From assembly GCA_021204625.1 (NCBI GenBank), contig JAJPZA010000126.1, forward strand, positions 1-52,539: a stretch of 52,539 nt of DNA, written 5' to 3'. Under the pieces are notes generated by a model. It had not been told where the DNA came from and ran no database searches. It saw nothing but the letters and a program-made list of their open reading frames with translations. Position 1 is the first letter of the stretch, and each line of letters begins with the position of its first letter. Shown piece after piece: positions 15,763 through 36,509 of the stretch. This stretch comes from Clostridia bacterium (GTDB lineage: Bacteria; Bacillota; Clostridia; Christensenellales; Borkfalkiaceae). The position numbers and the translations under genes are program-made.

Positions 15763-15996
15763 ATGAGAAAACTGTCCGAAAAGAGCAAGAGGTTCAGACG
15801 CAGGTTCCACAAGGTGCCGGATGAGATAAGGAAGAAGAGGGAGAAGCCCTTCGAGAAGAAGATATTCAATCCGTACCAGAACCTGATCGTCATTCCGGAG
15901 GGCTACGACATAGCTGAAATGATGGACCTGGACGATGAAATCATGGCAGATGCCAGGCCGTATTACACGAAGGAGGTCCATGTCATATTTGAATGA
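15763..15996 (+). CDS. Small basic-to-acidic protein, unknown
   Basis: 77 residues with a strongly basic N-terminal half (KLSEKSKRFRRRFHKVPDEIRKKREK) and an acidic C-terminal half (EMMDLDDEIMAD). It overlaps the start of the ardC-type gene by 4 bases (ATGA), so the two are translationally coupled. A GGAGGAACGGG ribosome site precedes it. Could be an accessory DNA-binding protein. Confidence 0.6.
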   Translation: MRKLSEKSKRFRRRFHKVPDEIRKKREKPFEKKIFNPYQNLIVIPEGYDIAEMMDLDDEIMADARPYYTKEVHVIFE

Positions 15997-17531
15997 AAAA
16001 GAAACGTTATTTATCTAAAGAGGAGCGGGGGCAGATAAACGGCCTGGAGCGTCTCACTCCCCAGAGGCAGGAGCTTGTGCAGCTTGTCATGAGCAACCTG
16101 CAGTCCGGACTGGGCCTGTGGCGCCGCAACTGGACTCCCAGCTCTGCGCCCATATCCGGCGTGAACGGCAAGTGCTACAGAGGGGTGAACAACCTGTACC
16201 TCGAGATGGTGGCCATGAACCGCGGATACGTGGACAACCGCTGGGTGACGTACAACCAGGTTGTTGACCACGGATGGAAGTTCAAGAAGAACCCCAACGG
16301 GGTGTCCTACGCAAGAGGCAAGGGCGTGCTTGTGGAGTTCTTCGACTTCCTGGACAGGACCACGAAGGAGAAATTCGACATTGCCGCACTCAACGGCAAG
16401 ACCCCGATGGAGAAGGAGGAGTACATAAGGAAAAACGTCTATCCGTTGCGCAAGGTCTACAGGGTCTTCAACGCGGACCTCATAGAAGGCATGCCGCCCC
16501 GCAAGGACTACTCCAAAAAGACCGGCGAGAACGAGCGTGTGGAGGAGCTCCTTGCGAACTGGAGCAAGCATGAGGCAAAGATAGCGTACGGCGGAGACGA
16601 CGCTTACTACATCAAGTCCAAGGACACCATCCAGCTTCCGCCCCGCGAGACCTTCGCGACATATCCGGAGTTCTACTCCACAGCCCTTCACGAGCTGGCC
16701 CATTCCACAGGCCATCCGTCCAGGCTGGACCGGGACTTCTACGGATACGGCACCGAAGAGTACAGCCGCGAGGAGCTCAGGGCCGAGATTTCATCCCTGT
16801 TCCTGTGCCAGGAGTACGGCGTGAACCTCACGGACCGGAACATGAAGAACGAATCCGCGTACATACGCAACTGGATCCAGGAGATACAGCAGGACCCGAA
16901 CGCGCTCTTCAAGGCGATAGCGGACGCGGACAGGATTTCCCGATTCGTCACCGCCAAGGAGCATCAGTTCTCGCTGCAGAAGGAGATGGAGGATGAAGAC
17001 GCAGCCGCAGCCTTCGGCGGCAGGGCCAAAGAAGGCGTCATGGAAGGCGTCATGGAAGGCGCCAAGGAAGGCACCAAAAGAGTCGCGGCAGACGGGTCTT
17101 TGGGCGGCACCAGGGTGTACATGCCTCCGTCCCAGATTGTCTCAGATGAGAGGAGCGTGGCAATGAAGAGCGTGGATCCGCTTATAGCCCTTTCGGACGT
17201 TTCGGTGTACGAGCACTGCGCCCACACCCGCTCCGGAGGCCGCTTTCTGGCCCTGTACAACGGACGGAACGTCATGGGGAACATGGAAAAGAGCCGCGAG
17301 TTTCTGTTCTCCCGCCTTGCGGTGTTCACGCAGGACGAGCAGCAGCTCTGCCGCATCATGAAGTCTTCCGCCCTCTATGACAAGTCCCTGCCGGACACAT
17401 ACTATTCGCAGATGGCCAAGGACGCCGTCGAGGACCTTCGCCGGATGCGCAAAGAGGGAGTGCAGTCTTCAATGCACAGGCAAAAGCCCACGGACAGGAT
17501 GCCGCAGCCGGGCGACGAAAAAGCAGGCTGA
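15993..17531 (+). CDS. ardC: ArdC-like antirestriction protein: ssDNA-binding domain plus zincin metallopeptidase
   Basis: 512 residues. The N-terminal half matches the ArdC/DUF1738 domain (GLGLWRRNW, NGKCYRGVNNLYL, WVTYNQVVDHGWKFKKN), which binds single-stranded DNA. Residues about 215-300 are a zincin-like polyvalent metallopeptidase with HELAHSTGH (His233, His237 and likely His241) followed by EELRAEISS. Proteins of this kind are carried by conjugative plasmids and ICEs and protect incoming DNA from host restriction. The C-terminal 150 residues carry three short EGV/MEGA-type repeats and an unrecognised tail. ATGA overlap with the preceding gene. Confidence 0.85.
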   Translation: MKKKRYLSKEERGQINGLERLTPQRQELVQLVMSNLQSGLGLWRRNWTPSSAPISGVNGKCYRGVNNLYLEMVAMNRGYVDNRWVTYNQVVDHGWKFKKNPNGVSYARGKGVLVEFFDFLDRTTKEKFDIAALNGKTPMEKEEYIRKNVYPLRKVYRVFNADLIEGMPPRKDYSKKTGENERVEELLANWSKHEAKIAYGGDDAYYIKSKDTIQLPPRETFATYPEFYSTALHELAHSTGHPSRLDRDFYGYGTEEYSREELRAEISSLFLCQEYGVNLTDRNMKNESAYIRNWIQEIQQDPNALFKAIADADRISRFVTAKEHQFSLQKEMEDEDAAAAFGGRAKEGVMEGVMEGAKEGTKRVAADGSLGGTRVYMPPSQIVSDERSVAMKSVDPLIALSDVSVYEHCAHTRSGGRFLALYNGRNVMGNMEKSREFLFSRLAVFTQDEQQLCRIMKSSALYDKSLPDTYYSQMAKDAVEDLRRMRKEGVQSSMHRQKPTDRMPQPGDEKAG

Positions 17532-17869: not shown

Positions 17870-17924
17870 CTGCGGGCACCCGGATTCAGGCTTGAGCGCA
17901 GCTGCTTTCTGGAGGAAATGAAAT

Positions 17925-20501
17925 ATGAAGAACAAAGAGAATACAGACGCAGGAGGAAAGAATTCAAAGGGGCTGTGCATCTTCTGGGCGGCGATTTTCC
18001 TGGTGACGGACCTTTTAATCTTCTTCCTGTACTACGCCTGCGGCTCCGGAGGAGCGGGAACGGTGTTCGGGAGCGGATACTTCTGGCTCACCGAAGGGGT
18101 TGCGGACGGATGCATAGTCGTCGCCATCCTGTTCATGCACCGGACGGACGCGGGAGGGATAGCCTTTGCCGCGAACGACCTGGAGAACACGTCCTGGCTC
18201 ACGGCCAGGAAGCTGAAGCGCATGGAGGAGTTCAGGGTGTTCTCCCTGAAGGACGCCGGAGAGCAGGCGGACGGGATAGTGATAGGAGCGGAGAAGAAGG
18301 GAAAGGACGTGGAGGTCACGGAGTCCGCGCAGATGCATGCGCTCATTGTGGGCACCACCGGCTCCGGCAAGACGACGGGTTTCGTGAACCAGAACATAGC
18401 CATCCTGTCCATGTCCAAAAGCAAGCCCTCGATGCTTGTCTCGGACCCCAAGTGCGAGCTCTATGAGCAGCATGCGAAGTCGCTTAAAAAGCGCGGGTAC
18501 AGGGTGCTGGCCCTAGATCTCAGAAAACCCTATTCCAGCGCCCGCTGGAACCCCATGTACATCTTAACCCGGCGCATCCGCATGATACGGGACCTGGAGT
18601 ACAACCTGCAGTACGAGAACGGAAAGTACAGCGCGGCGGGCGAGACCTTCGCGACGTACAGGGACGCGCGTCTGAGAAAGCAGCAGCTCATGGACGAGAT
18701 ATACGAGAACGCAATGGACCTTGTGTACACGCTGTGCCCCGTGAAGAACAAGGACCAGCCTTCGTGGGAGGAGGGCGCAAGAAACCTGATTCTGGGCTTC
18801 CTGCTCGCGATGTGCGAGGACTGCATATCCGGCAAGATCACTGAGAAGCAGATGGTGCTGTTCAACCTGTACCACAACATAACGACATACTGCGCCCAGG
18901 ACCCGGACATTCTGCGGACATACCTCACGGAAGGGAGGGACCGGTTCTCCAAGGTGAAGGGGCTTGCGAACACGGTGCTGCTCACGACGGACAGGACGCT
19001 CGCATGCTATCTCTCCGAAGTGAACCATTACATGCAGCAGCTCTCGGATGACGGCATCCTGTCCCTCACCATAGAGAACGGGATAGACATCATAAACCTG
19101 GACGAAAAGCCCGCAGCGGTCTTTCTTGTCATTCCGGACGAGCGCGCCACAAGGCACGGCTTCGTGACGCTGTTCATCACCCAGATGTACAAGGAGCTGG
19201 TGGAGAAGGCCAACCTCAACCAGAGGCGCAAGGCCACCAGGGACGCCTGCCTGAAGCGCCACGTGTACTTCATCCTGGACGAGTTCGGAAACCTTCCGCG
19301 GTTTCCGTCCGCGGACAACATGGTGACGGTGGCCCGCTCAAGGGGCATCCGGTTCCTGTTCGTGCTTCAGTCCTTCTCGCAGCTCACCGCCCGCTACGGG
19401 CGCGAGACGGCGGAGGTCATAAAGTCGAACTGCAACATCAAGATATTCATCGGCTCGGACGACGAGCCAACGCGCCGCGAGTTCTCGGAGCTCTGCGGGC
19501 AGAAGAAGATACGCTCGCTTTCCATAAGCACAAATGCGGAAAGCGTGTCATCCTCAAGCTCTTCGGCTTCCACAAGGCCGCTCATCACTCCGGGCATGCT
19601 GGAGCGCATAAACGGGGAGAGGAAGGGGGACGCAATAGTGTCCGTCAGAGGCTACGAGCCGCTCAAGACCGTCTTCACGCCCTCGTACGAGCTTAAGCGC
19701 GAATACTTCCCCGAAGGGGACTGCAAGGCCAGTGACGAGGCCAAAGATTTCAGAAAAGAGGACTATTTGTACGATATTTGCGGAGGACTGCCGAGTACTA
19801 TGTCAGATGAAGCCATGGAAAATATAGAGAAAAGGGAGGAAGAAGCCCTCAAAGAAGAGGCGTCTGTAGAGGATCTGGACGCCAAGTGGTACAAGCTGAA
19901 GCGCGAGATTGAGCTCACCTGCGGAGACCTCAAGCACCTGCTGAAGCCTGAGGACATTGATACTATAGACTCAATAGAGCTCAACCACATAGACCGGTAT
20001 CTTTCGGCTCTCATTGTGGATTACAGCAAGCAGCCGAGGGCGCTGGCCGCCATCACGAACGCATGGCGCAGGATAACGCAGGAGCTGCTGCCTGAGATGA
20101 AGGAGCTCCAGGACAAGGCCCGCTGCGCGCATGCCTCCGGCTATGGCGCGGACGGAGACGGCCTGGCCGCCCCTCCGGCCTTTGAAGGCGCAGCCTGCGG
20201 AAATGCTGGATACGGTAATGCAGGAACGGACGCAGGTCCGTACGGGCCTGCGGATGAAGACACAGAGGAAGACACGGAAGAAGACACAGACCTGTCCGAT
20301 GCGGACGGCACAGAGGATACGGACGGCACAGATGATGCGGACGGCACAGATGATGCGGACGAAGCAGACGGTGCGGAAGATGCGGAAGACACGGATGCGT
20401 ACGGGGAGCATGAGGAAGACCTGGACGCTTACGATGACTGCTTCATGGATCCGGACGCGAAATTATTTTGGGAGGATATGAATTTCAATGAAGATGAATA
20501 A
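17925..20501 (+). CDS. virD4: VirD4/TraG-type type IV coupling ATPase
   Basis: Couples the relaxase-DNA complex to the conjugation channel at the membrane. 858 residues. Two N-terminal membrane segments (about 16-38 and 48-68) are followed by a Walker A motif IVGTTGSGKTTGF (139-151), SDPKCELYEQHAKSLKKRGY, and a Walker B motif FILDEFGNLPRF (about 448-459). LQSFSQLTARYG and SNCNIKIFIGSDD are also typical of the family. The last 120 residues are an acidic Asp/Thr/Glu/Ala tail with repeated DGTDDA units. It starts after GGAGG and overlaps the next gene by 14 bases. The acidic tail is unusual and may recruit a basic partner. Confidence 0.93.
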   Translation: MKNKENTDAGGKNSKGLCIFWAAIFLVTDLLIFFLYYACGSGGAGTVFGSGYFWLTEGVADGCIVVAILFMHRTDAGGIAFAANDLENTSWLTARKLKRMEEFRVFSLKDAGEQADGIVIGAEKKGKDVEVTESAQMHALIVGTTGSGKTTGFVNQNIAILSMSKSKPSMLVSDPKCELYEQHAKSLKKRGYRVLALDLRKPYSSARWNPMYILTRRIRMIRDLEYNLQYENGKYSAAGETFATYRDARLRKQQLMDEIYENAMDLVYTLCPVKNKDQPSWEEGARNLILGFLLAMCEDCISGKITEKQMVLFNLYHNITTYCAQDPDILRTYLTEGRDRFSKVKGLANTVLLTTDRTLACYLSEVNHYMQQLSDDGILSLTIENGIDIINLDEKPAAVFLVIPDERATRHGFVTLFITQMYKELVEKANLNQRRKATRDACLKRHVYFILDEFGNLPRFPSADNMVTVARSRGIRFLFVLQSFSQLTARYGRETAEVIKSNCNIKIFIGSDDEPTRREFSELCGQKKIRSLSISTNAESVSSSSSSASTRPLITPGMLERINGERKGDAIVSVRGYEPLKTVFTPSYELKREYFPEGDCKASDEAKDFRKEDYLYDICGGLPSTMSDEAMENIEKREEEALKEEASVEDLDAKWYKLKREIELTCGDLKHLLKPEDIDTIDSIELNHIDRYLSALIVDYSKQPRALAAITNAWRRITQELLPEMKELQDKARCAHASGYGADGDGLAAPPAFEGAACGNAGYGNAGTDAGPYGPADEDTEEDTEEDTDLSDADGTEDTDGTDDADGTDDADEADGAEDAEDTDAYGEHEEDLDAYDDCFMDPDAKLFWEDMNFNEDE

Positions 20502-22704
20502 GATCAAGACAATGCTTGTTCTCGCCCTCGCGGCAGCCGCAGCGGCGGCGGTGGCGGCGGCCGGATACATATATCTGTCCGCAGGAGACCGGGGGACGGG
20601 AACGGTATCCGCCATGGCGGACGAGACGCTCTGCGTGCATGAGTATGAGGAGACGGTCATAGCTCCCACATGCATCCAACAGGGATACACGCAGCACACG
20701 TGCTCCGTCTGCGGATACTCGTACGAGGACAGCTACACGGACGCTTTGGGGCACAGTTACGTGGAGTACGTAATAGAGCCCACATGCACGAACGGCGGCT
20801 ACACGCTCCATACATGCAGGAACTGCGGAAGCTATTACACGGACAATGAGACGGAAAAGCTGGGGCATGATTACGCGGACACCGTGTATGAGCCCACATG
20901 CGAGGAGGCCGGGTACACGTACCACTGCTGCCTCACCTGCGGGGAGATGTACACGGACTCATACCAGGACGCCCTGGGCCATGACTATAGTGCGGACGTC
21001 ACGGCGCCCACCTGCCTGTACGGCGGATACACCGTTTACACCTGCGCAAGATGCGGGGACACCTACACGGCGGACGAGACTGCAGCTTTGGGGCATGAAT
21101 ACGAGGCCACGGTCAAAGAGGCCACATGCACGTCATACGGATACACCAGGAACGTGTGCCTGCGGTGCGGGGATTCATACGTCGTGAATTACGTATCGCC
21201 CGCAGGCCACAGCTATGCGGCCACGAAGACTGTGGCGGCCTCTGAGGACACCGTGGGATACACGGTCTACACATGCTCCGTGTGCGGGGACGTCATAATC
21301 TCAGACTTCTGCGACAGCGGCGAAGGGAGCTACGTCCACAGCATTGAGTATTACATGACGGAGCCAACCTGCACAGAGCCCGGCTACATCTGTTATTACT
21401 GCACGGACGAAGGCTGCGGCTTCTATGAGGAAGCCCTGTACGCTCCCGCAACAGGCCATACGGAGACCAGCCGTTATGTGGAGCCCACCTGTGTCACGGA
21501 CGGCTGCTTTGAGGTCATCTGCTCCGTCTGCGGGGAAGTGCTGTCCGTGGAGAAGACATTCCCTGCAACCGGCCACACGTACATTGAATATGTAACAGAT
21601 CCGACGTGCACGGAGGGAGGATACACGGCATACGTCTGCTCCGTCTGCGGGGACACATACATCGGGGATGAGACAGACCCTGCGGGGCACCTGTACATGC
21701 TTGTGACCAGCGCCTCCCGCACGGCCCGGCTGATTACGGCTTCATACAAATGCGCCGTGTGCGGCGCGGACGCAACGGACAGCCTTGTGGCCGTCTTCAC
21801 AGGCTCCAGCGGGTCCAGCTACTCCAGATACTTCATAAGCGGCGCCATATCATACTCGTTCCTGCCTTCGGACACATACACGGTGGAGCTGTATGACGTC
21901 TCCGGCGAGACAGAGACGCTCGTGAGCATTTTCCCTATCTGTATAGAGGCGCTGCAGGAGAGCAATCTTCTTCTGGACGGCGCGGAGACGGAGGATAAGG
22001 TCACGTCGGCCAGCGGAACAATGTCCGGGGTTGTTTCCGGCACAACAAAGGCGGTCACGGAGACAGTCACAGCAGAGCACAGCCACAATTACGACGTGTT
22101 CATCCAGAATGATGAGGAGAACGGCATGCTCTACATAACCGCGGTGTGCGCCGCATGCGGCGAGAGCCTGGCGGATGAGATGGTAATAAAGGTTACCTTT
22201 GCGGACGGAACAACGTCATATCTTTCCGCAGACAGCTACGGCACAGTGAACTACTCATACATTCCGGAGGGCTCATGCATATCCGTATGCATGAACACAG
22301 GCGAGGAAATGTATGCGTTCACCGTAGGAGACACCGGCAACTCATCCAGCTCTAACGGCTCCACAGCCACCGGCACGGACGGCACGGGAGCCTCCGGCAT
22401 AACAGACGGAACAGGCACCGCAGGCACAGACACAGACGGATCCGTTTCCACGGGAGACGGCACAGAAGGCAACGGCACGGACGGCTCCGGTTCAGGAGAC
22501 GTAACAGAGGGAGACGCCTCGACAGACGGCAGCGGAAAGGCGGCGGTGTGCATAATCATAGCCATCGTAATAATAGCCCTTCTGGCGTTCGTGATACACA
22601 AGGTCATGAAGAGCAGAAAGGCAAACAAGGCCCGGAAGGCCGCGGAACAGGAAACGCCCGCAGAAGGCAGCGGCGCGTCTGACGCGGACGAAGACGATGA
22701 ATGA
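20488..22704 (+). CDS. Cys-repeat cell-surface protein within the conjugation operon
   Basis: 738 residues. A hydrophobic N-terminal segment (KTMLVLALAAAAAAAVAAAG) serves as signal or anchor. About nine repeats of roughly 38 residues follow, each with the form H.Y...V..PTC...GYT.YTC..CGDSY....T.ALG. Each repeat offers His plus three Cys, fit to bind zinc. Next come a non-repeat domain, a Ser/Thr/Gly/Asp linker and a C-terminal membrane helix (AVCIIIAIVIIALLAFVIH) with a basic tail. Repeats of this type occur in surface proteins of gut Clostridia. Its position between virD4 and the pilin gene suggests an adhesin for mating contact, which is inference. The start overlaps the end of virD4. Confidence 0.75.
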   Translation: MKMNKIKTMLVLALAAAAAAAVAAAGYIYLSAGDRGTGTVSAMADETLCVHEYEETVIAPTCIQQGYTQHTCSVCGYSYEDSYTDALGHSYVEYVIEPTCTNGGYTLHTCRNCGSYYTDNETEKLGHDYADTVYEPTCEEAGYTYHCCLTCGEMYTDSYQDALGHDYSADVTAPTCLYGGYTVYTCARCGDTYTADETAALGHEYEATVKEATCTSYGYTRNVCLRCGDSYVVNYVSPAGHSYAATKTVAASEDTVGYTVYTCSVCGDVIISDFCDSGEGSYVHSIEYYMTEPTCTEPGYICYYCTDEGCGFYEEALYAPATGHTETSRYVEPTCVTDGCFEVICSVCGEVLSVEKTFPATGHTYIEYVTDPTCTEGGYTAYVCSVCGDTYIGDETDPAGHLYMLVTSASRTARLITASYKCAVCGADATDSLVAVFTGSSGSSYSRYFISGAISYSFLPSDTYTVELYDVSGETETLVSIFPICIEALQESNLLLDGAETEDKVTSASGTMSGVVSGTTKAVTETVTAEHSHNYDVFIQNDEENGMLYITAVCAACGESLADEMVIKVTFADGTTSYLSADSYGTVNYSYIPEGSCISVCMNTGEEMYAFTVGDTGNSSSSNGSTATGTDGTGASGITDGTGTAGTDTDGSVSTGDGTEGNGTDGSGSGDVTEGDASTDGSGKAAVCIIIAIVIIALLAFVIHKVMKSRKANKARKAAEQETPAEGSGASDADEDDE

Positions 22705-22741
22705 GAGAATATGAAAAAAATTAACGGAGGATAGATACTTA

Positions 22742-23038
22742 GTGAATTTCATCAACCTTTTGGAAGACAGCACTCTGGACTCCAGCCTGGCCTCAATCGT
22801 GGCCAAGCTCCAGTCCCTCATAGACAGTTTCTGGGTCTATATCGTTATCGCCCTTGCGGCCGTGGTAGTTGTATGGGGTGCGTACATAGGAATACGCATT
22901 GCCATCGCCCACAGGAACGAGGAGAAGATAAATGCCAGGGATATGATAAAGAACCTTATCATCGGCATAATAATAATCTTCGTGGTTGCAATGGGCGCGC
23001 CCCTTCTCATCCAGGGACTGTCCGCATGGGTCGGCTAG
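22742..23038 (+). CDS. VirB2/TrbC-like pilin or small membrane subunit
   Basis: 98 residues with two membrane helices (about 33-53 and 73-95) joined by a short basic cytoplasmic loop (RIAIAHRNEEKINARDMIKN). This is the layout of VirB2/TrbC-type pilin subunits. The start is GTG 22742, 11 bases after GGAGG, a rather long spacing. It lies between the surface protein and the VirB6-like gene, the usual place for this component in Gram-positive conjugation operons. Confidence 0.7.
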   Translation: MNFINLLEDSTLDSSLASIVAKLQSLIDSFWVYIVIALAAVVVVWGAYIGIRIAIAHRNEEKINARDMIKNLIIGIIIIFVVAMGAPLLIQGLSAWVG

Positions 23039-23080
23039 TCCGTCCCGCTTTGGCGGAAGGCCGTTAGCCTTCCTCGCTTC

Positions 23081-23153: not shown

Positions 23154-23219
23154 GGGAAACGATTCATTCTCATCTGCTAACGCAAATTCCGGCCATGATG
23201 GCCGAGTAGGAGGATAACA

Positions 23220-24551
23220 ATGATAATCCTGCTTCAAGAGATGTTCATGCAGCTGTTCCTGTGGCTGCTGATGCTGGTGGACGGCATAACGGACCTGTTC
23301 AACGCCATATGCGGCATAGATGACGTCACTTACGCCGGGGACAGCGTGAACATTATAGAGAGCACCCTGATAAATTCAACGGTACAGTCCGTATTCTGGT
23401 GCGTCATAATCCTTGCCGTGGGCCTTGCATGCATCTTCACCATCGTGGCGGTCATAAAGAACATGATAAAGTCGGACCGCGCCCTGAGCGAAATCGTCGG
23501 CAAGTTCTTCCTTGCCATTCTCGGAACCATAGCGATGCTATTGGTGGTGGTCTTAGGAATCATGATAGCCAACGAGCTGCTGCGCATCCTTTCGGACATA
23601 TTCAGGCTCAACACAAACCTTAGGCTTTCGTCCGTCATATTCGACGCCTGCACCGGCAAATGGATCAACGGCTTCTCGATAAACGACTTCGACGTCAGCA
23701 CCACTACGGTCTCGGACCTTTTCGGCTCGTATGACACGGCCATGTGGATATGGCCCACATCATGGAAGATGAACGGCATGATAGACCCCGGGGAGTTCTA
23801 TTTCGCCCCGGCAATAATAGCCGTCATATGCCTCGCCTGGTTCCTTCTGAACGCTTTGGTCACCATGGCCCGCAGGCTGTTTGAGATAGTGTACTGCTAC
23901 TTCTGCATGCCGGTTGCCATGAGCACCCTGCCTTTGGATGAAGGCGCCCGGTTCAAGAACTGGACCACAACTTTTCTTAGCAAAATACTTCTGGCCTTCG
24001 GCTGCGTCCTGTCCGTGAACATCTTCTCGCTGCTTCTGCCAGTATACACATCGCTCTCCATTCCGGGAGCCGGCTCCTTTGAGAACGCCCTGTTCATGCT
24101 CATCTTAATCATAGGCGGGGCAATGGTCATTCCCGTAGGCCAGGCCATCTTCGTCCGCATCTTCGCAAGCGGGGAGGACAGGGCCGGCGGCGTCCATCTT
24201 ACCCGCGCGGCCGGCCGTGTGGAGAAATTCGCGACCAATGCGGTAATCGCCACCGGAGGGGCAACCATGTTCGCGTACAAGGCAATCAAAAACAGCATCC
24301 ACAAAGCGTCCGGCTCATCAGGCGGCTCCGGGGACGGAGAAGACGGGGCGTACAGGGATCCGGACGGAACGGATTCGGACTCAGGCTCATATTCGGGCGC
24401 GGATGAGTCCGGCTCATATACAGGCGCGGATGCCGGCTCAGACCCCTTCACGGATGACTATTCAGTAACGGGAACGGATTCCGGCGCAGTTTCCGGAGGA
24501 GGACACGCCGGCGGAGGCGGCGCAGCCGGAGGCGAAGGAGGAGACGCATAG
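23220..24551 (+). CDS. VirB6/TrbL-like polytopic conjugation channel protein
   Basis: 443 residues with about six hydrophobic helices (around 10-25, 58-80, 98-125, 195-220, 258-285 and 290-315). A soluble C-terminal region rich in Ser, Gly and Asp ends with GGGGAAGGEGGDA. The architecture and its place directly before virB4 identify it as the VirB6/TrbL-type inner-membrane channel component of a Gram-positive type IV secretion system. GGAGG lies 7 bases before ATG 23220. It overlaps the virB4 start by one base, so the two are coupled. Confidence 0.75.
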   Translation: MIILLQEMFMQLFLWLLMLVDGITDLFNAICGIDDVTYAGDSVNIIESTLINSTVQSVFWCVIILAVGLACIFTIVAVIKNMIKSDRALSEIVGKFFLAILGTIAMLLVVVLGIMIANELLRILSDIFRLNTNLRLSSVIFDACTGKWINGFSINDFDVSTTTVSDLFGSYDTAMWIWPTSWKMNGMIDPGEFYFAPAIIAVICLAWFLLNALVTMARRLFEIVYCYFCMPVAMSTLPLDEGARFKNWTTTFLSKILLAFGCVLSVNIFSLLLPVYTSLSIPGAGSFENALFMLILIIGGAMVIPVGQAIFVRIFASGEDRAGGVHLTRAAGRVEKFATNAVIATGGATMFAYKAIKNSIHKASGSSGGSGDGEDGAYRDPDGTDSDSGSYSGADESGSYTGADAGSDPFTDDYSVTGTDSGAVSGGGHAGGGGAAGGEGGDA

Positions 24552-26821
24552 TGAAACGCATAATTCCCAAGAAAACCAAGGTGAAGAACACAGTGTGGAA
24601 GTGCTACAGCATGCCGGACATCATAGTGGCCCTGGTGCTGTTCGCCGTCATCTTCATCTGCATGACCTGCTCCTCATACGTCTGGGCGGTGATATTCGCC
24701 CTCATAACAATAGGCCTTCTCATGCCAACCCCGGACGGGGTCATGTACACCATCCTTTTGGACAACGTCAGATTCCTGTCTTCAAAGAAGAGGTACGTGA
24801 CCGGCGCCCTGTACAAGGAGAGCGTGGAGTCGCTCACGCAGCTAAAGGAGATACATGAAAACGGCATTATGGAATACACGGGCGGCTGGTACGGAAAGGC
24901 CATCCGCATAGGCCAGAAGAACTTCGGCATAGAAGAGGAATACCGGCAGAACCTGGACATAGACTGCCTTTCCAAGGCCTTAAAGATGATGGACATGACG
25001 CAGTGCTGCGAGATAGTCAAGACGGAGCGCCCGGCAAACCTGGACCGCTTCTCAAAGAAGCTCTTCAAGGACGTCAGCAAGCCCGGCCTTCCGCAGGCAA
25101 GAGTGAAAATCCTGTCCGGAAGGATAGACAGAATAGACAGAATAAACAACGTGCGCAGGCAATACCTTTCCAACTTCAGCCTTGTGGTGTACGGCCGCAG
25201 CGAGCATGACCTGGATGTCACCGTCAACGGCATGGCGGAGGAGATAAAGAAGGCGGGCCTTCCCGCGGACGTGATGTCCGGAAGGGAGGCGGCGGTCTTT
25301 CTAAAGTATTCCGCCGGAGCAAGAGGCAACATGGAGGAGCGGCTTGTGGATGACGTTCCGCAAGCCAGGCTCGCCGCCTGGACGCAGCCAAAGGAAGTTG
25401 CTTTCACCGGCTCGTCATTCATCCAGGACGGACTGGAAGGCGTGTGCGTGGCGGTCGGGGATTACCCGCTTCGCGTGAACAACGCATGGGGGAGCGGCCT
25501 CTTCCACATACCCGGCACCAAAGCCGTGATGCATCTGCGGCCCGTGGAGAGGGAGAAGGCGATACGGAGAATAGACAAGTGCATCTCCGAGATGGAGACC
25601 AAGTCCATGACCTCCTATAAGGCCAGCGAAGCCAACTCCGCGGAGACCCACAGGGACACAATGGTGGCCCTCCTGGATTCCCTGCAGAAGTACAACGAGA
25701 CGCTTCTGGACGTGTCCGTGACCATAACCGCATACAATTACGGCAAGGAGCAGGATTTCAAGAAGCGCATCAAGAGGGAGCTCTCCCGCCGGGACTTCAG
25801 GCCCGCAATGCTGTACGGCATGCAGACGGAAGCGTACAGGAGCTGCTGCCCGTCCCCTGTGAGCACCATGACAAGATATGAGAGAGGGATAGACAGCAAC
25901 ACGGCGGCGGCCGTGTTCCCGTTCACGAGAACATCCGTGATGGATGAGGACGGCATCCTTTTGGGACGCACCAGAAGCGGCGCCCCGTTCATCCTCAACA
26001 TCTGGAAGCGCGGCTTGCTGTACCAGAACTCCAACGCAATGATAATAGGCAAGTCCGGCTCCGGAAAGTCCTATTTCATGAAGACGCTCATCGCCAACGA
26101 ATGGTCGGACGGAGCCAGGATAATCGTCCTGGACCCGGAGAACGAATACACCGTTTTGTCCCACAACCTGGGCGGCACCGTGATAGACGTCGGCAACGCG
26201 ACGGAGGGGCGCATAAACCCCTTCCACATATACAGCATCCTTTCGGAGGACGGCACCCCTGCCAGCCCCGAAATTACCTTCAGCACCCACCTGAAAACAC
26301 TGGAAGGCTTCTTTCGCATAGTACTTGAGGGTGCTCATTCAGACATAATAGAGCTCATAAACAGCCTCGTCATAGAGGCGTACGAACTTAGGGGCATAAC
26401 CAAGGACACGGACTGCACCGGCTTTCTCCCGGAGGACTTTCCCACATTCACGGACCTCACGGCCGCCCTTGAAGCCCGCCGCAAAGAGGCGGCGGACGAG
26501 ATCTCGCTGAAGGAGCTGCGCACGGCTTCCCTGTATCTGGAGAAGTTCGTCTCCGGCAGGTACGCGGACATCTGGAACGGCCCCAGCACAATGGCGTCCG
26601 GCGCGGACATGTCCGTCTTCAACTTCCAGTCCCTGTTCGCCAACAAGAACAACGTCGTGGCCAACGCGCAGATGCTTCTCGTGTTCCGCTACATAGAGCA
26701 GGAAGTCATCAACGCCAGGGAGAGAAATTCAGGCGGCGAAGAGCAGCATATCATGATAATCGTGGACGAGGCCCATCTTTTCATCGATGCTAAGTTCCCT
26801 ATACCCAATTTCACACAGTAA
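24551..26821 (+). pseudogene. virB4: VirB3-VirB4 conjugation ATPase, 3' end removed by prophage insertion
   Basis: Motor ATPase of the conjugation channel. 756 residues remain. Residues 1-75 form a VirB3/PrgI-like pair of membrane helices fused to the VirB4 body. Walker A is IIGKSGSGKSYF (about 498-509) and Walker B is IIVDEAHLFID (about 735-746). Right after AKFPI, where the family continues with about 100 more residues of the nucleotide-binding core and arginine finger, the frame runs into foreign sequence and stops (PNFTQ). The missing part should reappear beyond the right end of the prophage. The truncated protein is unlikely to support transfer. GTG start, coupled to the upstream gene. 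Confidence 0.85.
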
Positions 26822-26908
26822 AATAAATGGAACAGCGGATTGATATACCAACAGCGGTAAAAAATTTTGCCAGTATATATGATAGTTTTTATATTGAGGT
26901 AAAAAACA
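26786..26908. other. Left attachment junction (attL) of the prophage
   Basis: Homology to VirB4 ends at codons 26792-26803 (Lys-Phe-Pro-Ile) and the sequence turns AT-rich. The recombinase gene ends 88 bp into the new sequence. AACAGCGG is repeated at 26831 and 26851, and GGTAAAA/TTTTGCC form an inverted pair nearby. These may be part of the phage half-site. The exact core cannot be set without the right junction. Confidence 0.65.
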
Positions 26909-28588
26909 TCAGTCCGAATAAGTGAAATTCATAATGAGCCCGCCAAGGAAAGCAATCTGCGTGACTTTGCTGTTTGTTATCGTGATTGTGGAAATCAAAG
27001 CATGGAAAAAGTTCTTGAGGAACTCCGGATTGGCGGCGGCGACAAACTTTTTCATGTCCAAATCCTTTCCGTTTTCAATGCTTTTTTCAAGCAAGAGAAG
27101 GGCGGCTTTGTTCATAAGCTCCGAATAATCCGTGTCATGGCTTTTGGCTTTTGCAGTGAGGTCGGCTATATCGCATGTAACGCTCTCCAGCCGAGAATTG
27201 ACCTCGGCAAGTTCTAGGTCATAATCTTCTTCCGAAAGGGCAGGGCGCATGTCATTAAGCCTGTTGAGAGCAGTCTCATATCTTTGCTTGCGGTTTTGCA
27301 GTTGCTCCAGTTCGGCGGCATAAGCGTCGCATCCCCTTAAAGCCATCTTCAAAGGCACAGGTTCACCTTTATGACGCACATTGCTCTTGATGGTGGAGAG
27401 TGCGTGAGCGTCTATGTTTATATTGCCCTCTATGTTGCGGAGTATCATTTCTTGAAGGGCTATGCGGTTCACGGTGTTCTTTAATCCGTTCTTTTGAATG
27501 AGAAAAAGATTGAAGACGATAGAAAGCACGAATTGTGCGAGGTAAGCCTCATTGACGTACGCAGATGAGCACATGCGAGGCTTCTTGTTCTTCTTGGAGT
27601 GATAGGACGGGAAGACGTTGTTGCACAGATACGAGACATAATCCGTTTCCCCGGTCTTGAGCTTCTTGGTTGCTGTGTGCCCGGACATAAACCGCCTTCC
27701 ACAGTTTCCGCATACAAGCATTGACTGAAAGATATACAGATGCTTCGGAGGGCGGCCTATTGTTGACGGGGGCAGACCCATGTTTGCCAGTATCGGCTGG
27801 AGTTTGTCGAAGGTCTCGGCAGGGATTATTGCAGGGTGGTGATTCTCGATTACCACAATGCCATAGGCATCAGTTCCGTATTCGTACGTTCCCTTGTAGA
27901 ATGAATTAGAGAGGATTCCCTTTACTTCCGAATAAGACCATTCTGCTGAATATGGAGGGGCGATTCCAGCTTTGGACAAAACAGAGACTATCACGTCCGT
28001 TGACTCGTAAAGCTCATAGAGCCGGAAAATTCTGCGGACTATGCCAGCCTGTTCTTCGACCACAGTAAATGTATTGGATTTCTTGGTGTACTTGTAGCCA
28101 TACGGCACACGCCCTCCGTTCCATTGCCCGTTGGATGCCCTAGAGTACATTACGGCAGTCACTCGCTCCGAAGTCATCTTGCGCTCCAGTTCGGCAAAGA
28201 CGAGAATGATTTTGAGCATGGCTTCGCCCATTGCGGTGGATGTATCAAACTGTTCGTTCTTGCTTACGAAGTCCACGCCCAAATCCTTGAGCTCGGCGTA
28301 CATTGTTGCGAAGTCCAAAAGATTGCGTGAGATGCGGTCTATCTTCCAGACCAGAAGATGGGTGTACTGGCGAGTGCGCAGTTTTTCCATCATGGCTTGG
28401 TAATCCGGTCTTTCCGTGTTCTTGGCAGAGAATCCGGCATCCTCGAAAATCTCGTAATCGTTGCAGTTCATTACAAGCTTGCAGTAGGAGATGAGGTCAC
28501 GTTTCTGCACCTTGAGGGAGTCTTTGTCTACTTGGTGTTTGGTGGAGACACGGACATAAATCGCCACCTTGAGATGTTTGTCTTCCAT
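26909..28588 (-). CDS. int: Large serine recombinase (phage integrase)
   Basis: 559 residues. Resolvase domain at about 7-150 with nucleophile Ser15 in YVRVSTKHQ and the RVTAVMYSRASNGQWNGGRVPYGY transition, of which the last half begins the Recombinase domain (about 165-280). A zinc-ribbon follows (CGNCGRRF near 305 and a second Cys pair near 350-365). A C-terminal coiled coil (ELEQLQNRKQRYETALNRL) and a final domain complete the large-serine-integrase plan. It catalyses attP x attB integration; excision would need a directionality factor not identified here. It overlaps the upstream gene by one base. Its 3' end faces the attachment site. Confidence 0.95.
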   Translation of the reverse strand: MEDKHLKVAIYVRVSTKHQVDKDSLKVQKRDLISYCKLVMNCNDYEIFEDAGFSAKNTERPDYQAMMEKLRTRQYTHLLVWKIDRISRNLLDFATMYAELKDLGVDFVSKNEQFDTSTAMGEAMLKIILVFAELERKMTSERVTAVMYSRASNGQWNGGRVPYGYKYTKKSNTFTVVEEQAGIVRRIFRLYELYESTDVIVSVLSKAGIAPPYSAEWSYSEVKGILSNSFYKGTYEYGTDAYGIVVIENHHPAIIPAETFDKLQPILANMGLPPSTIGRPPKHLYIFQSMLVCGNCGRRFMSGHTATKKLKTGETDYVSYLCNNVFPSYHSKKNKKPRMCSSAYVNEAYLAQFVLSIVFNLFLIQKNGLKNTVNRIALQEMILRNIEGNINIDAHALSTIKSNVRHKGEPVPLKMALRGCDAYAAELEQLQNRKQRYETALNRLNDMRPALSEEDYDLELAEVNSRLESVTCDIADLTAKAKSHDTDYSELMNKAALLLLEKSIENGKDLDMKKFVAAANPEFLKNFFHALISTITITNSKVTQIAFLGGLIMNFTYSD

Positions 28589-29244
28589 TATTCCGATTCA
28601 ATGATTTTGAGTGAGGCTACCGCAAAGGGTGATTCCGTTCCGTACGTCTTAACGCAAAGAAAGCCCACGCCGAACTGTTCGTCCTCTAAGCAGAAGTCCT
28701 TTTCAATATCTGCATCCTGCACTATGGCGATATACAGGAAACGGGAGCGGCGGAGATTTAGTTCCGTCTGTCTGATGAGCAGAGCTTCGTCCTCATAGTT
28801 GAGATACCCGGCATCGCCCATCGCTCCCACAATGGTACACCCCTTGGAAGTGCGGTTGTAGGTGTAATCCAAAGCAATGTCATCCAGCTCCCTGTAAGAC
28901 ATGGATTTCAATGCGGAGGCATAGTCTTCGCAGTCCTTGTAGGTTTTTGCGAATGTGCACCCGGTCTCGAAAGAGCTTGCGGAGATGGCAACGATATATC
29001 CGTACGGAGACATCATTAAAAGGTCTGCCACAGGCCCTGTACCCAACTGCACATCCTTCCCTATGCATAACAGCGGATTATAGCAGAATCCAGCCTGTTC
29101 AGAGACGATTAAGTCGGGATTCCTTTCAATCATACCTATAACGGTTTCTGCGCTCACAGGAGCTCCACAGGGCGCAATTACGGGCATGCCCCCGGAGAGG
29201 CTTACCACGGCAGGGCTGTAAATGTTACTGAAGTAATGTTCCAT
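28588..29244 (-). CDS. NucS/DUF91-like PD-(D/E)XK-fold protein with degenerate active site
   Basis: 218 residues. The segment AETVIGMIERNPDLI ... PLLCIGKDVQLGTGPVADLL ... YIVAIS ... DYASALKSMSYRELDDIA follows the layout of NucS-like nuclease domains (LE.lIe.npeLL ... IGreV.t..GriDLL ... lvviElK ... QalDYa.w...lsyedLeeia). The first Asp is kept (Asp74), but the E-x-K that completes the catalytic centre is Ala-Ile-Ser (86-88). So it may bind DNA or a partner without cutting. The C-terminal 80 residues are unrecognised. It sits between cI and integrase, where many elements carry an ImmA protease, and overlaps both neighbours. A role in repression control or exclusion is possible but unproven. 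Confidence 0.6.
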   Translation of the reverse strand: MEHYFSNIYSPAVVSLSGGMPVIAPCGAPVSAETVIGMIERNPDLIVSEQAGFCYNPLLCIGKDVQLGTGPVADLLMMSPYGYIVAISASSFETGCTFAKTYKDCEDYASALKSMSYRELDDIALDYTYNRTSKGCTIVGAMGDAGYLNYEDEALLIRQTELNLRRSRFLYIAIVQDADIEKDFCLEDEQFGVGFLCVKTYGTESPFAVASLKIIESE

Positions 29245-29569
29245 TGGCTTTCCCCTTGTATTTGTGGAGAACGGCTTTCACTACCGTCCTGTCATCCTCG
29301 GAAGCGACTTGGTACATGGTTGCGAACTCCCTTACTTCTTCGGGCAGGATGCTGTACTTGTTGTCGCTGAATCCTACAAGCCAGTCTATTGATACATTGA
29401 AGTATGCGGCAATGCGCATTACATACTGCAAGTCCGGCACACGCTTTTCTGTCATGTACCTAGAGAGCGTTGCTGAAGTGATTCCGGTCTCAATCCCGAA
29501 CTGACGTACGGAGAGCCCACGACTCTTTATTAAAGACTGAAGGTTGTCACGGAAAACATCGAAGTTCAT
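29225..29569 (-). CDS. CI-like repressor, XRE family
   Basis: 114 residues. The N-terminal 65 residues form an XRE helix-turn-helix (VRQFGIETGITSATLSRYM, RVPDLQYVMRIAAYFNVSID). The rest is a short helical tail with no S24 peptidase domain. AAGGAG precedes the start. It probably maintains lysogeny by binding the palindromes at 29624-29648. Lacking self-cleavage, its inactivation needs another route, perhaps the neighbouring gene product or an antirepressor. First gene of a leftward operon with the NucS-like gene and integrase. Confidence 0.88.
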   Translation of the reverse strand: MNFDVFRDNLQSLIKSRGLSVRQFGIETGITSATLSRYMTEKRVPDLQYVMRIAAYFNVSIDWLVGFSDNKYSILPEEVREFATMYQVASEDDRTVVKAVLHKYKGKANGTLLQ

Positions 29570-30621: not shown

Positions 30622-30757
30622 GGACTATATCCTAGATGGCTTGCAGGAACAGGGGGTTAAGCCGGAAGAGATAGACAATGAGCTTAATGGAGCAGAGTTG
30701 CTGGACACTACAATAATGGAGAAAACAAATGGAACAAAGAATAATAGAAGGACTTGA
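30608..30757 (+). CDS. Short overlapping early ORF, unknown
   Basis: 49 residues (MEQNKDYILDGLQEQGVKPE...). It overlaps the upstream stop by 14 bases and the downstream start by 29 bases, filling an otherwise empty gap in a tightly packed operon. No domain seen. Moderate support only. Confidence 0.45.
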   Translation: MEQNKDYILDGLQEQGVKPEEIDNELNGAELLDTTIMEKTNGTKNNRRT

Positions 30758-31328
30758 GTTTGAAGAACGCACACACACTTACAGGCTGGACGGATTTGAA
30801 CTGCCGAGTGTTACCACAATCATGAAACCGCTTTCACAGGCGAACTACAAGGGGATAAGCGAATTTACGCTTAACCAAGCGGCTGACAAAGGCACGATAG
30901 TCCACGGGTCGATAGAGGAATTTATACTTTACGGAATGATAGACGTGCCCGAGGAGTACAAGGGCTATTTGGATGCCTTCATGGACTGGTACGAGCTCCG
31001 CAAGCCCACGCCTTTAATCATTGAGCACCAGACTTGCCACAAGATTTTCCGATATGCAGGAACTGTTGACAATGTTTCCGAGATTAACGGAGTGAAGACC
31101 CTTATAGACTATAAGACTACGTACAACACATCCAGCAATACATGGGGTATTCAGCTTGAAGCCTACGCCAAGTGCCTCGAGCAGGAAGGAATCAATATCG
31201 GGCGCAAGATGGTTCTTCACCTTGCAAAGACTGGCAAGTGGAAGGAGATAGAATATCCTGTGCCGGATGCCGAGAGCTGGAGGGTGTTCACTTCACTCAA
31301 ATGTATATATGATTATATGCAGAAATAA
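30729..31328 (+). CDS. PD-(D/E)XK exonuclease (RecB/YqaJ/Cas4-like)
   Basis: 199 residues. His59 (VHGSIEEF), Glu99 (IIEHQT), YAGTVDNV (Asp114) and LIDYKTT (Asp127, Lys129) reproduce the RecB-type nuclease active site, with the trailing WGIQLEAYAKCLEQ helix of motif QxxxY. It likely resects linear dsDNA 5' ends to supply ssDNA to the annealase encoded two genes later. A shared-type palindrome lies right after its stop codon. Confidence 0.85.
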   Translation: MEQRIIEGLEFEERTHTYRLDGFELPSVTTIMKPLSQANYKGISEFTLNQAADKGTIVHGSIEEFILYGMIDVPEEYKGYLDAFMDWYELRKPTPLIIEHQTCHKIFRYAGTVDNVSEINGVKTLIDYKTTYNTSSNTWGIQLEAYAKCLEQEGINIGRKMVLHLAKTGKWKEIEYPVPDAESWRVFTSLKCIYDYMQK

Positions 31329-31332
31329 ATAT

Positions 31333-31351
31333 TTTGTGCAAAATGCACAAA
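31333..31351. promoter_or_regulatory. Palindrome TTTGTGCAAAATGCACAAA in the prophage
   Basis: Identical over 19 bases to 17694-17712 in the conjugative block. It ends 18 bases before the -35 of the next promoter. Confidence 0.6.
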
Positions 31352-31369
31352 ACAAAATCAATAAAAATA

Positions 31370-31398
31370 TTGACAAGATAAATTTTATGTGGTAGAAT
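31370..31398 (+). promoter_or_regulatory. Phage promoter, family copy 1
   Basis: TTGACA, 17-base spacer ending TGG, then TAGAAT and ATAACTAGAAA. It drives the recombination genes from 31466. It belongs to a set of eight similar promoters in this prophage. Confidence 0.85.
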
Positions 31399-31465
31399 AT
31401 AACTAGAAAAAATAAATCACCCCTCTTAAACAAGGCGGTGAGAAAGAAGACGGAGGATTTGAAAT

Positions 31466-32182
31466 ATGGCTAGAACATCTGCAAGAACCCTTGAGGTTGC
31501 ACCCATTACAACAAACGCTGAAGAGGTTGAGCTTCGCAAGGACGTAAGCGAAATCGAACAGCTTGCAAATGCGATTGTAATCACAAACGATGCTGACTAT
31601 CAGGAAGCGTCAGACATTTGCTCACAGGTCAAGACCACGAAGCAGAATGTAGTTGATTATTGGGAGCCCATCCGCAAGCCTGCATACGATGCGTACAACA
31701 CAATTCTCAAGCACAAGAAGGACATGACAGACCCGCTTGACAAGGCTGAGAAGACGCTGAAGGCTAAGATGGTTGATTACAACAACAAGATGGAGCTGGA
31801 GCGCAGGATTGCAGAGGCTAACGCAAGGAAGGCGGCACAGGCAGAGGTTGACAGGCTTGTTGAAGAGGCAGATGCGGCACTCAAGGCCGGAGACACGGCA
31901 TTGGCAGAACAGCTTCTTGCGGAGGCTGAAATGTATGATGTGGCATCCACCACATTGACAGTAGCAGGAAACAAGCCCGAGGCAAACGGCTCTTACACGA
32001 CGAAGGCATGGACTATTAAGGTCACGGATGCGGCAAAGGTTCCCGTAAGCGTAAACGGAGTTGAGATTCGCCCCGTGGACGAAGCCGCAGTACTCAAGCT
32101 CGTAAAGGCAATGAAGGGAAACATCACCATCCCCGGAATCGAGATTGAAGAGACCTGCACAGTAGCAGTTAGAAAGAAGTAA
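31466..32182 (+). CDS. Coiled-coil protein of the phage recombination module
   Basis: 238 residues. Residues about 40-165 are a long Lys/Glu/Ala coiled coil (DYWEPIRKPAYDAYNTILKHKKDMTDPLDKAEKTLK is its core, here cited as position 65-102). The C-terminal 70 residues look like a small beta-rich domain (YTTKAWTIKVTDAAKVPVSV). Such proteins are regularly encoded between phage exonuclease and RecT/Bet genes. A role as exonuclease partner or nuclease inhibitor is inferred from position. GGAGG precedes the start. Confidence 0.7.
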   Translation: MARTSARTLEVAPITTNAEEVELRKDVSEIEQLANAIVITNDADYQEASDICSQVKTTKQNVVDYWEPIRKPAYDAYNTILKHKKDMTDPLDKAEKTLKAKMVDYNNKMELERRIAEANARKAAQAEVDRLVEEADAALKAGDTALAEQLLAEAEMYDVASTTLTVAGNKPEANGSYTTKAWTIKVTDAAKVPVSVNGVEIRPVDEAAVLKLVKAMKGNITIPGIEIEETCTVAVRKK

Positions 32183-32203
32183 TAAAAGGCTAGGAGGAAA
32201 TAA

Positions 32204-33160
32204 ATGGCTACCGCAGAAATGGTGAAAGCCAATGACATGAGTTTAGTACAGTACGAGTCAGCGTCCAAACAGAGCGTGACGCTGACTCCGGATATTGTAA
32301 GGAAACAGCTCGTCAGAGGCAAAGGCAATGTTACAGACCAAGAGATATTCATGTTCATGAGGACATGCCAAGCTAGGGGGCTTGACCCGTTCGAGAACGG
32401 AGAAGTGTATCTCATCAAGTATGACAACAGCAATCCTGCGCAGATGGTTGTAGGCTATCATGCCTATGCGAAGAGGGCGGATGCGTTTCCGGATTACAGG
32501 GGCTACAGCGCAGGGATTACGGTAGTGCGCAATCTCAACGGCAATGCCGAAGTTATTCAGAAGGAAGGGCAGTGCGTTTACAAGGCACTCGGAGAGACCC
32601 TTATAGGGGGCTGGTGCAGAGTAAGAAGGGAGCGCAAGCCCGGATATATCGAGGAGTCGTTTGTTGAGGTATCGCTGGACGAATACAGCTCCGGTCAGAG
32701 CAACTGGAGGACCAAGCCTGCAACCATGATACGCAAGGTTGCCGTATCACAGGCACTTAGACAGGCGTTCCCGAATGATTATGAGGGCTTGTACACAATC
32801 GACGAGATGGATGCATCAAATGCTTTCCACGGACATTATGTAGACGAGGAGACAGGCGAAGTTACTAGAATGAACAGCGCAATCCCTGCCGAGAAGTCAG
32901 AGCCCGAGGAGGACTCCAAGCTTACGACCAATGACCGCAGGGAATTGACGCAGAAGCTTGTAGAACTCTTTGGCAAAGAGCAGTCCGGCGACATGTTCAA
33001 GGTCATAGTTGAACAGGCAGGATTCAACGTAACAAGCACCGCCGAGCTTACGAGAAGTCAGATGGTGACCGTGCTTGCGAAAGCCGAAGAGATAGCGGCT
33101 AAAATGAATGAGGGAGACGAGCAGACGGCGAACGGTGATGGGGACGAAAAGACAGCATGA
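32204..33160 (+). CDS. bet: Phage recombination annealase Bet/RecT
   Basis: 318 residues. Residues about 25-215 match the Bet (Red-beta) family: FMRTCQARGLDPFENGEVYL, MVVGYHAYAKRAD, WCRVRRERKPGYIEESFVEV, TMIRKVAVSQALRQAFP. It anneals complementary single strands during homologous recombination. The C-terminal 100 residues are acidic and flexible, as in relatives that contact SSB. AGGAGG precedes ATG 32204. Works with the upstream exonuclease. Confidence 0.93.
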   Translation: MATAEMVKANDMSLVQYESASKQSVTLTPDIVRKQLVRGKGNVTDQEIFMFMRTCQARGLDPFENGEVYLIKYDNSNPAQMVVGYHAYAKRADAFPDYRGYSAGITVVRNLNGNAEVIQKEGQCVYKALGETLIGGWCRVRRERKPGYIEESFVEVSLDEYSSGQSNWRTKPATMIRKVAVSQALRQAFPNDYEGLYTIDEMDASNAFHGHYVDEETGEVTRMNSAIPAEKSEPEEDSKLTTNDRRELTQKLVELFGKEQSGDMFKVIVEQAGFNVTSTAELTRSQMVTVLAKAEEIAAKMNEGDEQTANGDGDEKTA

Positions 33161-33884
33161 TGCCGATGACGGCATTATGGTACTGATTAGCGTTTACGAT
33201 ACCGTTGACGGCCCGAAGCTCCGTGCTTTGTACAAGAAACTCAACTGCTCGAAGTTTGAGGCTCTAGGAGTCTTGAACTTCCTGTGGCTGTGGGGGCTTA
33301 AGAACGCTGACAAGGACGGCATGGTGCTCAATGCCGACAAAAAGGATGTGGAGCGTTATCTGCAAGGGGTCGGCGCAGGATGCACAATAGACAGCGAGAG
33401 AATCGTGGATGCGCTTATAAGCACAGGCTGGATAGATACGGATGACAAGGGACTGCATATCCATGACTGGAGCCAATGGCAGAGGAAGAAGGATTCCACG
33501 CCCGAAGTCTCCCCGAATGTTACCGAAATGCAGACAGAGATGTCTATTCCGGAAATAGAAAAGAAGCCCGGCAAATATACATCGGGGTTCGAGAGCTTTT
33601 GGAAGGAATACCCTAGAAAGGTAGACAAGGGTATGGCATACAAAACCTATCAAGCCCGGCGCAATGACGGATTCTCGGACGAAGAGCTTTTGGAAGCCTG
33701 TATAGCGTATGCGAAGAAGTGCAAGGAACAGCATACGGAAGCCATGTACATAAAGCATCCGAAAACATTTTTGGGACCGTCATTGCCGTTTACGGACTTT
33801 CTTCCGAAGGACGGCGAGAAGATTAAGAAGAACGATTACGAGTTGGACGACAATCCGTTCAGCAAGTACATAGACAGCGAGTGA
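33138..33884 (+). CDS. Phage replisome organiser / replication initiator
   Basis: About 248 residues. The N-terminal winged-helix region (LRALYKKLNCSKFEALGVLN, DVERYLQGVGAG, LISTGWI..DDKGLHIHDW) and the C-terminal FESFWKEYPRKVDKGMAYKTY segment are standard in replication-initiator proteins of Bacillota phages. It should bind the phage origin and recruit the loader encoded next. The start is uncertain: ATG 33108, 33138 or 33177, none with a good ribosome site. 33138 gives a modest overlap with bet. Confidence 0.8.
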   Translation: MGTKRQHDADDGIMVLISVYDTVDGPKLRALYKKLNCSKFEALGVLNFLWLWGLKNADKDGMVLNADKKDVERYLQGVGAGCTIDSERIVDALISTGWIDTDDKGLHIHDWSQWQRKKDSTPEVSPNVTEMQTEMSIPEIEKKPGKYTSGFESFWKEYPRKVDKGMAYKTYQARRNDGFSDEELLEACIAYAKKCKEQHTEAMYIKHPKTFLGPSLPFTDFLPKDGEKIKKNDYELDDNPFSKYIDSE

Positions 33885-33886
33885 TT

Positions 33887-34753
33887 ATGTATAACCGCAT
33901 AAGGACAGAAGAAGAGAAACAGGCTAGCTGGAACAAGATGATGGACAGCATAGCGGCTACAATGCGAAGCCAGCAGGTAATCAAGGATGGGGATTATTAC
34001 AATGAAGACGGCCTCCTTATCTGCGGAGTGTGCGGAGAGCCACGGCAGATGTTCAGCGACGAGTTTAACGGCAACATTGTTCCTGTTCAATGCAGGTGCG
34101 AGACGGAAGCCGACAAAGAAGCCGAGAAGCAGATGAGGGAGGAGCGGCATCAGAAACTTGTCGCCAAGCTCAAAGAGGAATCGGACATTCCGAAGAAGTA
34201 CACGGATGCGACGTTTGAGAATTTTGTACGCAACAAGGGAAACCAATGGCAGTACGAGAGATGCCTTGAATACGCACAGAAATTCACGTCCATGAAAGAG
34301 GGCAGGAGCATAATCATGACCGGGAACATAGGCACAGGGAAGACATATGCGGCGGCTTGCATCGGCAACTACCTTTTGGAGCAGGAAGTGAGCGTGGCGA
34401 TGGCGAATGTCATCCATGTGCTGGACGAGTTCAGAGACCCCGAGAAGACCTCCTCGGGATTGTTCGCCAAGCTGGTATCTGCGGACTTGCTTATATTGGA
34501 CGACCTTGGAGCGGAGCATGCCACAGACTATGCCATAGAGCGGTTGTACAGCATAGTGAACGAGCGGTACGTCAATGACAGGCCCGTCATAGTATGCACC
34601 AATCTCACATTTGACAGCATGGCATCATGCGAGGACATCCGCTACGCAAGGATTTACAACAGGATTATGGAAGGCGCAGACCTGCTGTCATTCACTGGCA
34701 GGAACTGGCGCATGGACATAGCATACAAGAATTACAGCAGGAACAAGAAGTGA
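33887..34753 (+). CDS. DnaC/IstB-type helicase-loader ATPase
   Basis: About 289 residues. An N-terminal zinc-binding segment (CGVCG near 47-51 and CRCE near 69-72) precedes an AAA+ core with Walker A GNIGTGKT (146-153), Walker B LLILDDLGAEH, and sensor 1 PVIVCTNLTFDSM. It probably loads the host replicative helicase at the phage origin. ATG 33887 is preferred over GTG 33881; the upstream stop overlaps here. Confidence 0.9.
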   Translation: MYNRIRTEEEKQASWNKMMDSIAATMRSQQVIKDGDYYNEDGLLICGVCGEPRQMFSDEFNGNIVPVQCRCETEADKEAEKQMREERHQKLVAKLKEESDIPKKYTDATFENFVRNKGNQWQYERCLEYAQKFTSMKEGRSIIMTGNIGTGKTYAAACIGNYLLEQEVSVAMANVIHVLDEFRDPEKTSSGLFAKLVSADLLILDDLGAEHATDYAIERLYSIVNERYVNDRPVIVCTNLTFDSMASCEDIRYARIYNRIMEGADLLSFTGRNWRMDIAYKNYSRNKK

Positions 34754-34754
34754 T

Positions 34755-35842: not shown

Positions 35843-35851
35843 GGAGAAACG

Positions 35852-36505: not shown

Positions 36506-36509
36506 GCAT

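Follow-up and report, generated by a model that had tools for sequence, protein, structure and literature searches.

The comK prophage of Listeria and phiSa3 in hlb are phage regulatory switches. Both resemble the locus described here in that a prophage interrupts a gene which can be restored by excision, but they differ in that the gene here belongs to another mobile element and excision is putative. Passages of PMC5357655, PMC7168690 and PMC5704250 describe serine-integrase IMEs inserted in traG (virD4), maff2 or snf2 of Tn5252-type ICEs and in traG of Tn1549-type ICEs. According to these passages the IMEs sit, as does the present insertion, within a conserved conjugative-element gene, and restoration of the gene upon excision has been proposed; an IME is however mobilizable and may ride on the ICE, whereas here virB4 is the gene affected and a temperate phage the inserted element. 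Pneumococcal prophages located in the competence genes comYC and ssbB, reported in sections of a study of 20,047 isolates (PMC12637031), likewise place attB in a gene serving another route of gene transfer and cost the lysogen that function, but the target is the competence machinery of the host rather than a mobile element and the 20,047 isolates compare with a single genome here. The phage described below is of the kind of the Faecalibacterium phage FP_Brigit (genus Brigitvirus, MG711465), with which it shares the order integrase, next gene, repressor, HTH genes, exonuclease and RecT followed by replisome organiser, loader, RusA and SSB, at 28-55% protein identity where the two match; the later part of contig C58 and the phage end of contig C192 have no match in FP_Brigit. 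The available text of PMC5883640 gives no integration site for FP_Brigit. Insertion of serine-integrase IMEs into ICE genes for coupling proteins has already been published, together with the same proposal about excision, and a prophage in virB4 appears to be a further variant. The main text of a paper on integrase targets (PMC10083194) does not mention virB4, and among the open-licence papers listed no report of a prophage in this gene was found, as judged by titles and the beginnings of abstracts.

The window (the whole stretch of DNA that was analyzed, 52,539 nucleotides) is the entire contig C58 of genome G000 and its right end falls within the phage. The G000 assembly (2.84 Mb in 233 contigs) was 94% complete with 5.35% contamination, and in size it exceeds the other 92 listed members of the genus (1.1-2.4 Mb). 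Our reading of the locus, which we hold at a probability of about 0.85, is that a temperate phage of the FP_Brigit type was integrated by a large serine integrase inside virB4 of a conjugative element. A serine-integrase prophage within this gene had been proposed in the initial annotation and the proposal was borne out by the two junctions, the virB4 fragment on contig C192, the uncut locus of genome G025 and the Brigit-like phage genes. The features of the window are collected in Table 1.

Table 1. Features of the conjugative element, the junction and the prophage in the window.
Feature	Position	Strand	Basis or remark
ArdC-like antirestriction gene	15993..17531	+	PF08401, PF18818
virD4 coupling protein gene	17925..20501	+	NF045973 above cut-off
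738-aa repeat-rich protein of the element	20488..22704	+	57% to gene at equivalent place in G025
T4SS pilin-like gene	22742..23038	+	PF18895 just below cut-off; 95% to G025
VirB6-like channel gene	23220..24551	+	NF045848 above cut-off
virB4 5' part	24551..26821	+	756 aa; native sequence up to about 26802, beyond it the phage-derived codons PNFTQ and the stop
TAT, crossover point (attL)	26800..26802		In both junctions; partner C192 28717-28715
AT-rich phage arm, virB4 stop to integrase gene end	26822..26908		Sequence
Large serine integrase	26909..28588	-	559 aa; Resolvase, Recombinase and zinc-ribbon domains; phrog_95 1.5e-111
218-aa gene overlapping integrase start	28588..29244	-	FP_Brigit has an uncharacterised gene at the equivalent place
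Phage repressor (HTH)	29225..29569	-	phrog_8 2.8e-20; 31% to Brigit HTH gene
Phage recombination genes: exonuclease, 238-aa gene, RecT-like annealing protein	30729..33160	+	PHROG and Brigit matches
Replication block: replisome organiser, DnaC-like loader, RusA-like, phrog_398 gene, SSB-like	33108..37194	+	phrog_50, phrog_398; FP_Brigit matches 28-55%, same order, phrog_398 gene without Brigit match; gene names from Brigit record
EcoRI-type adenine methyltransferase, phage-borne	37682..38731	+	PF13651 1.4e-99
Further phage-side genes to contig end	38724..52539	+	Composition resembles rest of phage; none matches Brigit

The VirB4 encoded on C58 was 81% identical over 751 aa to the uncut VirB4 of G025, a genome of the same genus, and it agreed with its homologues up to the residues HLFIDAKFPI, which are followed by PNFTQ and the stop codon. 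Coverage of NCBIfam model NF045975 reached position 778 of 894 for the window protein and 893 of 894 for its G025 homologue, both scoring under the curated cut-off so that the exact subfamily assignment is tentative. The earlier reading, in which the frame tracks its family as far as HLFIDAKFPI and then breaks off, was upheld by the homologue alignment; a homologue that naturally ends at this point was not encountered, as six homologues extend 120-138 residues further. The integrase is the next gene, as had been stated, although the spacing from the stop codon is 87 bp and not 88. With the last 147 residues of G025 VirB4 as query, the missing 3' fragment was found in the same genome on contig C192 (28725-28354, minus strand), free of stop codons and sharing 85% identity with the corresponding stretch of the G025 protein. 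Beyond it about 4.3 kb of small genes, including a repressor-like HTH gene, run to the end of that contig. The predicted virB4 fragment adjoining phage-like DNA was therefore located, but it represents approximately the last 15% of the protein rather than a C-terminal half, and the suggested extension of C58 to the right could not reach it, as the window comprises the full contig and stops within the phage. The insert is spanned by no contig, and we infer that C58 and C192 are connected through the phage.

The C58 junction reads CTAAGTTCCC-TAT-ACCCAATTTC and the C192 junction reads CAAGAATGG-TAT-CGCACTGGAC. Only TAT is common to both, which fits the short attL/attR core of a large serine integrase, and the codons flanking TAT are in one frame and match KYPIALDFF of the relatives. 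The insertion is real and is mutually confirmed from the two contigs. The two halves of virB4 show no decay, being free of stop codons, and dN/dS against G025 was 0.14 for the C58 part (751 residues) and 0.08 for the C192 part (126 residues), values which are no proof of present use since most of the divergence from G025 may be older than the insertion. The joined attP, as an exact sequence of 26 bases, had no match in the viral_contigs set. A hairpin lying just within the phage at the C192 junction folds and was not called by the terminator scan; as that scan was negative we do not claim a polar effect for it.

All three integrase domains (PF00239, PF07508 and PF13408) scored above cut-off, and the protein was 39% identical over 99% of its length to the FP_Brigit integrase. 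The gene is read from the minus strand, so that virB4 is next to its 3' end. The adjoining 218-aa gene had no PHROG or Pfam match and no Brigit match at 1e-4. In the right part of the window (from 38724) the PHROG search took in two genes, of which one (41729-42280) was repressor-like and the other (51548-52474) belonged to a PHROG family without a named function. Two further contigs of G000 carry structural genes resembling those of FP_Brigit, namely C29 (4.8 kb; terminase small subunit 45%, large subunit 61%, portal 56%) and C72 (3.5 kb; a partial sheath gene 56% and the next gene 50%). C72 also carries a gene resembling one which lies 23 kb away in Brigit, and gene order therefore differs there. 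A Brigit-like phage is present in G000, broken over several contigs, and we infer that C29 and C72 belong to the virB4 insert. In G000 no match at E<=0.001 was obtained for the major capsid protein or baseplate J of Brigit, and the prophage may thus not be intact. Contig C109, which carries a terminase, was dropped as a candidate part of the phage as it had no Brigit match.

Close relatives of the integrase were sought in two sets, viral_contigs and genome_contigs, each of which gave one distant match (27% and 23%), and no relatives of RecT were found in viral_contigs. Terminase relatives were found in viral_contigs, where 80 of 590 loci were retained and the top match was 65%. Six of the 80 retained loci had their records searched with the integrase, and three gave a match (39%, 35% and 28%, the latter two weak), and the 39% match lies near the end of its 60,837-bp record so that the host flank is unreadable.

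The genes of the conjugative element on C58 span 15993 to 26821 and include both VirB4 and VirD4 within one gene cluster, as in a T4SS conjugative element. The MobP relaxase profile PF03432 had no match in G000 and matched 1 of 14 control genomes, and the mobility of the element accordingly remains putative. On contig C59 of G025 the ArdC, virD4, 738-aa, pilin, virB6 and uncut virB4 genes are followed without interruption by a gene for a 934-aa protein and a phosphoesterase gene, an order which in G000 is split between C58 and C192 precisely at the virB4 junction. Parts of this order recur, concordantly and again with virB4 in one piece, on contigs of G032, G019 and G331, except that G032 has additional genes between virB6 and the pilin gene.

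VirB4 is required for conjugation. When VirB4 was aligned with 4ag5, a solved VirB4 motor domain, the cut fell just after the DEAH segment (Walker B); the lost part opens with the residues that lead up to KRIRKYNG, a string common to both proteins, and also takes in the QN segment that follows. Judging from this alignment, loss of the post-DEAH segment should destroy the ATPase. No second VirB4 was found in the G000 assembly at E<=0.001, and because the missing residues are part of the motor domain and no other VirB4 was detected at this threshold, silencing is likely and lysogeny probably stops self-transfer of the conjugative element. We propose that a temperate phage of the FP_Brigit kind inserted by means of its large serine integrase at a site within virB4, that in the lysogen the 756-residue VirB4, lacking the last part of the ATPase domain, would fail as a motor and leave the element unable to transfer itself, and that the integrase together with a putative directionality factor would excise the phage precisely and so rebuild virB4.

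A VirB4 match at E<=1e-60 was found in 67 of 396 genomes of the order, with at most two candidates scored per genome. Among the matches listed, G000 alone was broken at this site and no other match started or ended near query residues 770-790; the sole other partial match inspected, in G194, ends with its contig. The suggestion that the site is a conserved attB holds at the protein level, but the DNA varies at third codon positions. Nine relatives of the integrase (37-41% identity) were taken as the two best from the 396 genomes of the order, two from the 93 of the genus and five more from the 398 of the family, the three sets overlapping. In six of the nine (G430, G461, G566, G573, G666 and G531) the integrase abuts the 3' end of an uncut queA, the identity of QueA being confirmed by NCBIfam for G430 and G461. 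The relative in G144 has a possible queA tail only, a weak call (10 residues, E 6.0) as is that in MT835491 (13 residues, E 0.014), and those in G330 and G708 are located elsewhere, the gene adjoining the G330 integrase having no Pfam match. virB4 was on the integrase side in none of the nine, and these relatives are therefore not virB4 specialists; weaker serine-integrase matches occurred in 273 of the 396 genomes, insertion sites having been read for the nine relatives. In a tree that addressed whether the target had changed from queA to virB4, the window integrase formed a long branch with no supported sister. Of 18 sequences intended for this tree, five (four of the five outgroups and G531) were lost for want of the chosen motif.

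The range of sites used by these relatives, at the queA 3' end or at other places, indicates that specificity varies, and together with the long branch of the window integrase it favors, at roughly even odds, an accident in which a phage of altered specificity settled in a gene dispensable to the bacterium and the effect on the element is a by-product. This account is compatible with the insertion of a FP_Brigit-type phage in virB4 as set out above, and a passage of Coluzzi et al. (PMC5357655) argues that disruption of conjugation genes affects the host little. It leaves unexplained why the insertion struck a competitor's conserved motor gene, and with one case chance and selection are inseparable. 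A site of little cost to the bacterium is the plainest selective reason for the insertion, and blocking of a competing element is a possible extra benefit.

A non-lytic excision upon induction of conjugation, by which VirB4 would be rebuilt, the element transferred and the phage re-inserted, could be added to the same reading but seems unlikely to us. The site is in frame with both halves stop-free, and parts of PMC5357655 and PMC5704250 propose that excision restores an ICE gene for IMEs in streptococcal ICEs; against this, a phage has no obvious gain from transfer of the element, the low dN/dS is uninformative on present use for the reason given above, and there is one instance among the VirB4 matches listed. 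That the phage is a hyperparasite which switches conjugation on and off is accordingly put forward as a hypothesis from one instance, and we consider it improbable that a Brigit-like lineage evolved an integrase for the motor region of ICE virB4, such that lysogeny would silence a competitor and regulated excision would reactivate it. With the phage in the motor gene of its neighbor, the attachment site itself would embody a conflict between phage and conjugative element. If transfer depends on the state of the phage, a single PCR across the unoccupied site would be informative for both elements at once, and the published conjecture for IMEs, that excision restores conjugation, would if true become testable with a phage.

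Separate insertions for the phage ends on C58 and C192, with virB4 split by a later inversion or deletion, would accommodate the lack of a spanning contig and the one weak protein match which the two ends have in common (E about 1e-4), but this is very improbable since the virB4 pieces meet in frame with TAT alone shared, the neighboring genes are in the expected order and both phage ends are alike in composition. Tetranucleotide profiles of the element parts of C58 and C192 correlated at 0.91 and those of the C192 phage part and the two C58 phage parts at 0.83-0.86, as against 0.34-0.51 between element and phage parts, evidence which is not specific since the 9-24 kb part of C192, not regarded as phage, correlated at 0.71-0.78 with the phage parts. 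An artefact of assembly or binning, for which the fragmentation and the contamination might speak, is the least probable account given reciprocal junctions from two separate contigs and, on the phage side, an integrase sitting at the junction.

Several other features of the element and its surroundings were observed. The aldolase-, Mrp- and LexA-like genes to the left of 9 kb on C58 suggest that this part is chromosome. In the same contig a 1166-residue protein (4010-7510) has a long proline- and glutamate-rich repeat as its middle part, and a 1588-residue protein (10803-15569), carrying DUF3849 at its N terminus and an NrS-1 polymerase-like domain at its C terminus, is a possible replication protein of the element. 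The 738-aa repeat-rich protein and that at 16606-19410 of locus L017 are related to one another and flank the pilin-virB6-virB4 block. On C192 a DUF3990-like gene paired with an HTH gene occurs repeatedly (L017 10950-15060), and a related pair is found between the virB6-like and pilin-like genes of the G032 element (L097 11057-12335). Near the far end of C192 (L019 106-8838) a 2910-residue protein contains ten Big_2 stretches.
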